Both the position numbers and the translations under genes were made by a program. The notes below the pieces were generated by a model, which was not told where the DNA came from, did no database searches, and saw only the letters and a list, made by a program, of their open reading frames with translations. This document shows positions 7,015-10,261 of a stretch of 20,138 bases of DNA, one piece after another (positions within the stretch are counted from its first letter, which is position 1; each line of letters starts with the position of its first letter). Source of the stretch: a virus; IMG/VR virus record IMGVR_UViG_3300030117_005018, positions 1-20,138 of that record; one strand, 5' to 3'.

Positions 7015-7054
7015 ATGCTCCCCTTAGTGCACTAATTATGGGGGGCATTTTTTT
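7015..7054 (+). terminator. Strong intrinsic terminator after gp32
   Basis: ATGCTCCCC (7015-7023) pairs with GGGGGGCAT (7040-7048) over 9 bp with one G-U, followed by seven T (7048-7054). It ends the plus-strand block where it meets the minus-strand tail block; the stop of the tape-measure gene lies in the T run. Confidence 0.9.
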
Positions 7055-8969
7055 ATTGTATTGTAATTATTCCCTCTGTAAATGGGTCTGGAGTGAGTCT
7101 ATTACCAAAAGAAAAAGTTTGGTCTTGTAAATTATTGGTAGTTACAACATTAGGGGCCATAACAAAACCACCACCATTAGGCCCATCTCCACTTCTTCTA
7201 GAACTTGAATTTGTGTAACTGTTTGATTTTGGAAGAGTTCCATTAGCAACAGTTCCCCCACCTTGAATTATTAATTTTTTTGCATCATCTACACTTATAC
7301 CCAAATCACTGGCCAATAATCCAGCATCAATGGCAATACTTCCTGCAGTTCCTCCACCAAAAGAAAAATAACCAGCAGTTCCTAATATTCCACTTAAAAC
7401 CTCTAGATAAGCTTTGTGGTACTCTCCCTCTGTTAATCTTTGTACACCGAACAACATTCCAGCTGGAATTGATATGAGTGGTAATTTTTTTAGACCACTT
7501 TTAACAATACTTTTGGTAACAGTTTCACCTGCTGTGGTAGCAATTTTTACTGAACTGGATAATTCTGATAAATATTTTGCTCTTTCTCCAGCTTTTTCTA
7601 CAACAGTTCCACGACCACCAGTTGTAGGAATTGCTGGTTTAGGTTTAAAAGCAAACTCACCAGTTCCACGAAGTGCGTCTAGTTGTTTTGGAGTTAACTT
7701 AGCTGTAGGTGATGTTACAGCCTTTAAACCTAATTTGACAGCTGCTTCTGAGGCCATTCCAGATAACTTTACTGTTGCCTTGGCAGCTATATCTGCCATA
7801 GTTGTAGCAAAAGTTTTAAGTGGTGAAAATAAAGTTTTAAAAACTGATGATATTCCTTTAGCTGTATCTGAAAATAATCCTTTTGTTTTTTCAAAATCTA
7901 ATAGTGATGCCATCCCAACACCAGCACCAACTAGTAAACCTACTAAGCCTCTTTTACCTAAAAATCTAAACAGGCTTCCAAATCTACCAGTAAGGCCCTG
8001 TAAACCTTTTCTAAAAACTCCAGTTTTTTTAGAGGTATTAACTTTATCCCTAAAACCTTTATTGGTATCAAGTAATGATGTACCTAAACTACCTAGATTT
8101 GTAAATAAAGCACCAAATTTTCCACTAATTGTTTTTAATATTTTTACACCTAATCCAGCAGTACCTCTTCCAACTTGGTATAATGTGCCAAAAAATAATC
8201 TTGGTGCTAGTAAAAGTGAAAATCCTGCTAACGCAGTTAAGATACCTGCAAAGTCTGCTGCTAAGTTTTTAATACCCCCAGTTAAAGTAAAATCACCATT
8301 TTCATCATAAAATCCATCTTTAAGAGATTTTATCCAATCAGTGAAAGCAGTTGATATCATACTCATTATATTTGATAAACCAGCAGTAGCACTAAATGTA
8401 TATTTTCCATTTTCACCTTTTACAAAAAATCCATCAACAACTTTTTTAAGAGTGTTGAATAAAGATTGTAATGCATCACCTAAGATTGGAATATATTTGT
8501 CTAAAATATCTTGCCATAATTGACTCTGTAAAAATTTACTAACAGCTAACAAAGATGCTAAAAATGCACCTGTTTTTAAAAGACCAAATAAAGAGTCTAT
8601 ACCCCCTTTAACTTTAGTCATTAAACTTTCACCTATACTACCTAAACCTCTTGCAACAAAAGAATCTTTACCTAAAAATTTATTAAATGTTTCTGTTAAA
8701 TAGTTTCGTTGTTCATTATTTGCCTCTTCTTGTGCAGCAGAAACTGGTTTTGGTTGATTTGCTTTTTGAGCGGCTGCTAGTTCAGCTTTTGCAATATTTT
8801 CTTGTCTAGTCCTCCAAGCTTTTTTACCAGCTTCAATTCTTAGTTCACTCTTTTCCCTATCATCTGTATTTTCATTGTTAGTTTGTGCTACGGCACGAAT
8901 GGCCGCAGTGGTTCTTTTTTGTTCCTCTACTAACATTCTAAAAGTTCTGTTAACTGCGTCTTCAGCCAT
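7053..8969 (-). CDS. Probable tail tape measure protein
   Basis: 638 aa, the longest gene here. A polar, helical N-terminus (1-95, Ala/Glu/Gln/Lys-rich) is followed by several hydrophobic or Gly/Ala-rich stretches (about 128-148, 238-262, 341-357 and near 540-570) separated by basic helices. The end is Gly/Ser/Asn-rich with FVMAPNVVTTNN. This make-up is typical of tape measure proteins. At roughly 1.5 A per residue, 638 aa would set a tail near 96 nm, like T4, whose gp29 is 590 aa. Its place after the gp26-type chaperone with a frameshift site supports this. A baseplate-associated role is the alternative. AGGTAG lies before the ATG, and only 6 nt separate it from the EF-hand gene. Confidence 0.68.
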   Translation of the reverse strand: MAEDAVNRTFRMLVEEQKRTTAAIRAVAQTNNENTDDREKSELRIEAGKKAWRTRQENIAKAELAAAQKANQPKPVSAAQEEANNEQRNYLTETFNKFLGKDSFVARGLGSIGESLMTKVKGGIDSLFGLLKTGAFLASLLAVSKFLQSQLWQDILDKYIPILGDALQSLFNTLKKVVDGFFVKGENGKYTFSATAGLSNIMSMISTAFTDWIKSLKDGFYDENGDFTLTGGIKNLAADFAGILTALAGFSLLLAPRLFFGTLYQVGRGTAGLGVKILKTISGKFGALFTNLGSLGTSLLDTNKGFRDKVNTSKKTGVFRKGLQGLTGRFGSLFRFLGKRGLVGLLVGAGVGMASLLDFEKTKGLFSDTAKGISSVFKTLFSPLKTFATTMADIAAKATVKLSGMASEAAVKLGLKAVTSPTAKLTPKQLDALRGTGEFAFKPKPAIPTTGGRGTVVEKAGERAKYLSELSSSVKIATTAGETVTKSIVKSGLKKLPLISIPAGMLFGVQRLTEGEYHKAYLEVLSGILGTAGYFSFGGGTAGSIAIDAGLLASDLGISVDDAKKLIIQGGGTVANGTLPKSNSYTNSSSRRSGDGPNGGGFVMAPNVVTTNNLQDQTFSFGNRLTPDPFTEGIITIQ

Positions 8970-8975
8970 AAATTA

Positions 8976-9356
8976 CTACCTGTTATCTTTTACTTGTATT
9001 GAATTAGTTCTTTTTGCTGCAAGAGCCTCTTTACCATAAAAGGCAGCAACAATGGCAGCAACTGAAACAAAATAAACTGCAGCCATATCACCTAAAATTT
9101 TTGCAGCTTGGTCTAAACCAATCCAATTGGCAATAACTACAAGTGAGGGATATAATAACATACCCCATAATGCGAACCATGCCATATATCTTTGTGCATC
9201 TTGTTTTTTATCTTCATTTTCCATATCAGACTTCATATCTTGAAGTTCAAGCATTTTTCTATCCATTTCAAGTTCCTCATCAGTTACAACACCATCGCCA
9301 TCCACATCTAAATGTGCATATTCAGACCCTTTTTGTAATTTTTTTTGTGCGGCCAT
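8976..9356 (-). CDS. EF-hand membrane protein
   Basis: 126 aa. Residues 17-28 (DVDGDGVVTDEE) form a canonical calcium-binding EF-hand loop with Asp at positions 1, 3 and 5, Gly at 6 and Glu at 12. A charged helix follows, then two membrane segments (about 57-79 and 90-107) and a basic tail. Small proteins of this design occur beside tail genes in other marine T4-like phages, but I know of no tested function. AAGGAG lies 6 nt before the ATG. It sits between the chaperone extension and the tape measure, so it is probably made late. A holin-like role is possible given the two membrane segments, but unsupported. Confidence 0.8.
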   Translation of the reverse strand: MAAQKKLQKGSEYAHLDVDGDGVVTDEELEMDRKMLELQDMKSDMENEDKKQDAQRYMAWFALWGMLLYPSLVVIANWIGLDQAAKILGDMAAVYFVSVAAIVAAFYGKEALAAKRTNSIQVKDNR

Positions 9357-9368
9357 TTATGACTCCTT

Positions 9369-9563
9369 TTACATCTGTTGTCGTTTTTCTTTTTCTATTT
9401 TTTCATTTTCCTCAAGAATATATTGCTCTAATAATCCTAAGTATATTTCCCTTTCAAATGGCATCATATTTTCTAATTCTGTTAAACTATATTTATGATG
9501 TTGCATCAATGCAAAGTTAGTTTTGTAATAATTAAATAGATTATCATGTGAAAGGCTTAACCT
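9369..9563 (-). CDS. -1 frame extension of the gp26-type protein (tail chaperone second half)
   Basis: An open frame continues past the gp26-type stop in the -1 frame. It adds 64 residues that begin RLSLSHDNLFNYYKTNFALM and include LTELENMMPFEREIYLGLL and a charged Glu/Lys tail. The PFEREIY block looks like the second part of phage tail assembly chaperones. The frame is open back to a TGA inside the gp26-type gene, with no ATG before 9506 (only an adjacent TTG). A separate 45-aa protein from the ATG at 9506 is possible, but would discard the SHDNLFNYY segment and has no good ribosome site. A frameshift at 9563-9569 would give a 297-aa fusion. Confidence 0.7.
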   Translation of the reverse strand, partial: RLSLSHDNLFNYYKTNFALMQHHKYSLTELENMMPFEREIYLGLLEQYILEENEKIEKEKRQQM

Positions 9564-10261
9564 AAAAAACTCTGGAGGCCCTCCAACATTACCTCACCTT
9601 TTTTCTTTGTTTTTGGATTTGTTACAGAAATTGAATGTCTAAGTTTTGGCATAGTATTAAAAAAATTCATCACTTGTTCAAATTGATTAGAAGTTAAAGT
9701 GTCAATAAACTCATCTAACTCTTTATCACTCATGTCAATTCTAGAATGAACTGTATCTCCATCATGTATTTCATGCACACATTTTGAAATTAGACCAAAT
9801 GTTCCATCAAGCCCAGCAGATATATCTATACCTTTCATATCACCCATAACTGGATACTTCATAAGTATTTTAATTTTGTCTGTGAGTTCTACAATATTTG
9901 TATGGTCAGCAGTCATGTGAACATCAATTTCATCTAATTTAATTATTTTTTCAACATAAGTTTTTCCATCATCTGGACATAAAACTTTTATATTTGAAGT
10001 TTCTCCTACAGATTTAGACCTTAGTTGTAAAAAGATATATTCAACATCAAATATGGGAAGTTGTTTTGCATTTAGTTGACCATCAGTACACGAGTCGATG
10101 ATGCTTGTAATTGTATTAGCAATTTGATCTTCATTCTCGCTCTCTTGAGCCATCATTAAAAGTTTTTGTTCTTTTACTAGGAAGGGTCTGTATTTAATTT
10201 TTCCACCAGTTGATGGAAGCTCCAAGTCATACTGTGGAGTATTCAGTTTGGGTAAAGCCAT
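9557..10261 (-). CDS. 26: gp26-type baseplate hub / tail assembly chaperone protein
   Basis: 234 aa matching the T4 baseplate protein family (PF12322, gp26-like) of marine T4-like phages. It starts MALPKLNTPQYDLELPS, followed by KYRPFLVKEQKLLMMAQES (24-42), a central LDEIDVHM region, and ends EVMLEGLQSFLG. In T4, gp26 belongs to the hub assembly set. Its acidic, helical nature and position two genes before a tape measure recall lambda gpG-type chaperones. The last codons AGT TTT TTA GGT TAA contain a slippery heptamer in frame, so it is probably made both alone and with a 64-residue extension. It follows the tail-tube-fold gene by 13 nt. Confidence 0.82.
   Translation of the reverse strand: MALPKLNTPQYDLELPSTGGKIKYRPFLVKEQKLLMMAQESENEDQIANTITSIIDSCTDGQLNAKQLPIFDVEYIFLQLRSKSVGETSNIKVLCPDDGKTYVEKIIKLDEIDVHMTADHTNIVELTDKIKILMKYPVMGDMKGIDISAGLDGTFGLISKCVHEIHDGDTVHSRIDMSDKELDEFIDTLTSNQFEQVMNFFNTMPKLRHSISVTNPKTKKKGEVMLEGLQSFLG
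9563..9584 (-). other. Probable -1 ribosomal frameshift site
   Basis: On the minus strand the zero-frame codons read AGT TTT TTA GGT TAA, so T TTT TTA (9569-9563) is an X XXY YYZ heptamer in the correct phase. A Shine-Dalgarno-like GGAGG (9584-9580) lies 10 nt upstream, the arrangement that stimulates -1 shifting in bacterial dnaX. The stop codon comes one codon after the heptamer. No strong downstream stem is obvious. Confidence 0.72.

Follow-up and report, generated by a model that had tools for sequence, protein, structure and literature searches.

A conserved slippery heptamer and a coding -1 frame support programmed frameshifting of a tail assembly chaperone gene in a marine T4-like phage

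Introduction

The tail assembly chaperones (TAC) of phage lambda, gpG and gpGT, are produced via a -1 shift, a strategy that a 2016 review (PMC5009743) describes as conserved among long-tailed phages, "except T4". Most long-tailed phages have equivalents (Xu, Hendrix & Duda 2004), with the shift likewise placed where the short gene ends. In T4, gp26 and gp51 have been listed as hub assembly chaperones (PMC3004832). The chaperone genes of T4-like phages were identified by Vladimirov et al. 2022 (Virology 566:9), as cited in the PRFect paper (PMC10885494), whose citing passage refers to T4-like phages in which two genes, one short and one long, take the place of frameshifting. The paper on phage Adele (PMC12846349) refers to the same work in connection with poly-T signals for a -1 shift in T4-like TAC-N genes. 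In the Vandenendeviridae and Andersonviridae, a -1 shift takes place at a conserved GTTTTT at the end of TAC-N, and the extension is annotated elsewhere as a separate hypothetical gene (PMC12846349).

Here we analyse a 20,138-nucleotide stretch of DNA (positions 1 to 20,138 of IMG/VR record IMGVR_UViG_3300030117_005018; hereafter the window) from a T4-like phage of different family and different host from the Vandenendeviridae and Andersonviridae. In place of the lambda heptamer, G_GGA_AAG, the window has T_TTT_TTA, and the likeness of its short protein to gpG is drawn from gene arrangement. The lambda pair and the predicted pair of the window are both encoded near the tape measure gene, but one small membrane-protein gene intervenes before the probable tape measure gene of the window. 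The Vladimirov, Gautam and Davidson study is reported to describe frameshifting as apparently conserved across several groups of T4-like phages, T4's own group using genes 26 and 51. The window shares with the TAC-N/TAC-NC of that study (Vladimirov, Gautam & Davidson 2022, Virology 566:9-15) the 26/51 gene pair and the chaperone assignment and, according to the citing passage in PMC12846349, the poly-T -1 signals; its own lineage differs in being represented by an uncultured marine contig. The original prediction knew of no description of a frameshift in T4-type gp26; the novelty that this implied is not supported, as the 2022 study precedes it according to the papers that cite it. The predicted shift in the window is a well-supported addition to a known phenomenon and not a new phenomenon, because T4-like TAC frameshifting was published in 2022.

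Results

The gp26-type gene, encoding the putative short chaperone TAC-N of 234 amino acids, is located on the minus strand (9557..10261), and its product matches PF12322 T4_baseplate (E=3.3e-64) and phrog_150 "baseplate hub" (E=3.4e-70). Analysis of its 3' end revealed the 0-frame sequence CAG AGT TTT TTA GGT TAA, with the stop at 9559-9557 and the heptamer T_TTT_TTA (9569-9563, minus strand) in the correct X_XXY_YYZ phase, one codon ahead of that stop. A Shine-Dalgarno-like element, GGAGGG, lies upstream on the same strand (9579..9584), with exactly 10 nt separating its GGAGG (9584-9580) from the heptamer. The -1 frame (9369..9563, minus strand) remains open for 64 codons, from 9563 to 9372, and ends at a stop at 9371-9369; its first TTG is codon 19 and its first ATG codon 20. 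Upstream of the heptamer this frame is open from 9593 only, and ATG, GTG and TTG are absent from there until codon 19. A fusion would comprise 233 + 64 = 297 amino acids. The in-phase heptamer at the gene end, GGAGG 10 nt upstream, the 64 open codons with no ATG in the first 19, and the reading-frame arithmetic for a 297-aa fusion beside a 234-aa protein had all been predicted, and each was borne out at these positions.

Profile searches assigned the -1 extension to a gp51-type C-terminal domain (TAC-C), with matches to phrog_634 "baseplate hub assembly catalyst" of the gp51 family (E=3e-26) and to positions 235-278 of the phrog_150 profile (E=5e-8). Both the N and the C parts of the fusion match the T4 gp26/gp51 family (PF12322, phrog_150, phrog_634), and the extension is 34% identical to the C-terminus of T4 gp51. 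T4 gp26 and gp51 are themselves paralogues, both within PF12322, and the C domain is present in gp51 only, which consists of N domain plus C domain; a short and long pair thus exists in T4 by another route. Genes 26 and 51 are separate and divergent in T4 and in Aeromonas phage 25, whereas the homologous proteins of the window would come from one frameshifted gene. An AlphaFold model of the gp26-type protein, whose input excluded phage-record rows, reached a pLDDT of 89. None of its PDB matches was significant; among those listed, the one with the highest probability was the HK97 tail assembly chaperone gp13 (2OB9; 0.41, with an E of 2.1), so that the likeness of fold to HK97 gp13 is only suggestive. 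A PDB sequence profile search found no relative with a solved structure.

The genes that follow are those that had been anticipated, and their order is the same as in Pelagibacter phage HTVC008M. An EF-hand-like membrane protein of 126 amino acids (8976..9356, minus strand), with its own ribosome binding site and ATG, shows 51-52% identity to its positional counterparts in HTVC008M and Melnitz-2. Two genes downstream of the gp26-type gene lies that of a probable tape measure protein of 638 amino acids (7053..8969, minus strand). Domain and profile searches with this protein gave no family match indicating function, and no sequence match was found to the HTVC008M protein annotated as "putative tail tape measure"; its probable identity rests on position and size, which agree with those of the HTVC008M gene. 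Between the chaperone and tape measure genes, the window and its relatives encode different small membrane-type proteins that seem unrelated to one another: an EF-hand-like one in the window, HTVC008M and Melnitz, a "WRxFPR" protein of about 80 aa in L072 and L025, and a protein of 135-137 aa in L015 and L024. In several cyanophages nothing intervenes.

To compare the junction across relatives, as the original prediction had proposed, viral contigs were scanned with the gp26 protein and with the -1 peptide as queries, resulting in 142 loci; these, with a few phage records, provided 114 distinct junctions. The sequence T_TTT_TT[A/C/T], in the same phase and followed by the -1 extension, was present in 114/114 of them, counts that are non-independent since the sequences are related, although the pattern still holds across deeply divergent members. 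The last base of the heptamer was C in 61, A in 38 and T in 15, and at every junction the next domain lay in the -1 frame. Within this set, identity to the gp26 of the window drops to about 31%. The gp26 scan is independent of the presence of the extension: it retrieved 62 loci, of which 6 ended short of the junction, and all 56 that spanned it carried both heptamer and extension. The same heptamer junction was found in HTVC008M, AG-345-O18, Melnitz-2, Melnitz-3, S-RSM4, S-WAM1, ACG-2014d and S-N03, as well as in pf16, Stenotrophomonas Ps15, Citrobacter Ci1, Aeromonas phiWae14 and Vibrio nt-1, and a variant, T_TTT_TTG, in Rhizobium phages.

A single heptamer proves little, since in-phase X_XXY_YYZ heptamers are common in the AT-rich window (52 in 5,216 codons). 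Away from the junction, these gp26 genes have T_TTT_TTN at 28 of 26,263 codon positions, and the conservation of heptamer and phase at the junction is, from these frequencies, evidently beyond chance. The codon that contains the first T of the heptamer encodes S, N, D, G, T or A, with T as third base in 114/114; likewise, the Phe codon is TTT in 114/114, in comparison with 79% elsewhere in the same genes. Selection thus acts on the nucleotides of the heptamer, as the residue of the first codon varies while its third base stays T.

With regard to stimulatory elements, of the 100 relatives with Glu at the codon within the GGAGG-like element, 70 use GAG, as compared with 21% elsewhere in the same genes. 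Two sub-clades of relatives showed strong hairpins about 5-6 nt downstream of the heptamer (energy z to -6.5), and one of these stems keeps its pairing at the same position via C-G, A-U, U-A and G-C. The two hairpins are different and belong to separate sub-clades (L072, L046, L080, L034, L075 and others; L111, L107, L121). An example is GGGCTCTC-ACAT-GAGAGCCT; the hairpins of the first sub-clade begin about 6 nt after the heptamer, and both kinds are absent from the clade of the window. A common downstream hairpin for the whole group was rejected: the window sequence downstream of the heptamer showed no unusual structure (z = +0.1), and the covariation test on 46 distinct sequences was weak. 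On these grounds we conclude that downstream hairpins are lineage-specific; the window phage seems to have none, relying on the heptamer and perhaps also on the GGAGG-like element.

Evidence of coding in the -1 frame was obtained from dN/dS values. Codons 1-18 gave 0.126, whereas reading this DNA in each of the two alternative frames gave 1.32 and 1.52; the remainder of the extension, past the first start codon, gave 0.095, and the end of gp26 0.180. Purifying selection acts on the first 18 codons in the -1 frame only, with none in the 0- and +1-phase readings. These codons belong to the conserved gp51-type domain, and in 63/114 junctions the -1 frame contains no ATG, GTG or TTG between its upstream stop and codon 19. 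The -1 frame is predicted to be translated from the heptamer onward, because codons 1-18, ahead of any possible start in the window, are under purifying selection.

Production of gp51 as a separate protein, started at the codon-20 ATG or by termination-reinitiation at the gp26 stop, would agree with the annotations of S-RSM4, Melnitz-2 and HTVC008M, in which gp51 starts at an internal ATG of this kind, with the presence of ATG at codon 20 in 101/114 junctions, and with the records of Vibrio nt-1, phiM9, RHph_I46 and Ps15, whose annotated gp51 begins at an ATG that overlaps the stop of gp26. We consider it improbable, as the selected codons 1-18 would lie ahead of the internal ATG yet within the conserved domain, start codons are absent from the -1 frame of the window ahead of codon 19, and codon 20 is ATA, ATT, AAA or GTA, counted as non-starts, in 11/114 relatives. 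Moreover, the heptamer is kept even in phages with a TAATG or TGATG overlap. In the four phages with the stop-overlapping ATG plus heptamer (L148, L149, L151, L157), the C domain could be produced both within the fusion and on its own.

A mixed mRNA population arising from RNA polymerase slippage on the T run, instead of a slip of the ribosome, is less probable still. In its favour are the homopolymeric site and the AT-richness of the genomes, but the run consists of only six T in 99/114 junctions (T_TTT_TTA/C), which is short for transcriptional slippage, and the enriched GGAGG-like element and the hairpins of some clades are both stimulators of ribosomal frameshifting. A T homopolymer is also a typical site of indel errors, so the break might be attributed to an assembly or sequencing indel, or to gene decay, splitting one true reading frame. 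This explanation has almost no probability left, given that 114 distinct junctions, together with isolate genomes from different groups, share the break, its direction and its phase, a conservation by which it is already contradicted. Programmed -1 ribosomal frameshifting remains as the reading in best agreement with these comparisons.

A conserved gp51-like C domain in the -1 frame around the gp26 stop was also observed in Ackermannviridae (Vi01, EP75, Dickeya phiD3, Serratia 2050H1 and Klebsiella MDA2066) and in Vibrio K413 (L152, L158, L159, L160, L161, L163). No in-phase X_XXY_YYZ site was found at these gp26 ends, which instead conserve NTT TTC followed by one codon, and no ATG, GTG or TTG was found at the beginning of the -1 frame in Vi01, EP75, Serratia 2050H1 and Klebsiella MDA2066. 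A -1 frame with neither start nor heptamer suggests a non-canonical slip. Tentatively, and with some doubt, the shift in these phages might involve P-site slippage of a single tRNA (from TTC to TTT), with the full heptamer and clade-specific stimulators (upstream GGAGG or different downstream hairpins) being used by the marine lineages.

Discussion

We hold it very probable that programmed -1 ribosomal frameshifting yields a chaperone pair, TAC-N and TAC-NC, like lambda G/GT. The lambda-like strategy put forward in the original prediction is in this way well supported at the sequence level by the conservation of the heptamer, the dN/dS of the -1 frame and the gp51 match. A fraction of the ribosomes on the gp26-type gene would slip back one base at T_TTT_TTA, with the Phe and Leu tRNAs re-pairing on TTT TTT, and would then read 64 further codons in the -1 frame. 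The expected products are the 234-aa TAC-N and a minor 297-aa TAC-NC made of residues 1-233 plus the gp51-type C domain. The in-phase heptamer, its conservation and the coding of the -1 frame with no preceding start codon are read directly from the sequence; the efficiency of the shift and its stimulation by the upstream GGAGGG are inferred. By analogy with lambda gpG/gpGT, TAC-N and TAC-NC would form a coat on the tape measure protein, with tail-tube subunits being recruited through the C domain.

These results have consequences for routine annotation, which they would correct: in the cyanophage and pelagiphage records examined, "gp51" is truncated at an internal Met or missed. The gp51-type extension is unannotated in S-WAM1 and ACG-2014d (L003, L156), and the S-WAM1 gp26 is annotated with 195 aa though its frame is open from an upstream ATG. 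In marine phages of this kind, the junction helps to locate an unannotated tape measure gene. It also allows a clean comparison between a phage group that appears to keep frameshifting and T4, which uses two genes.
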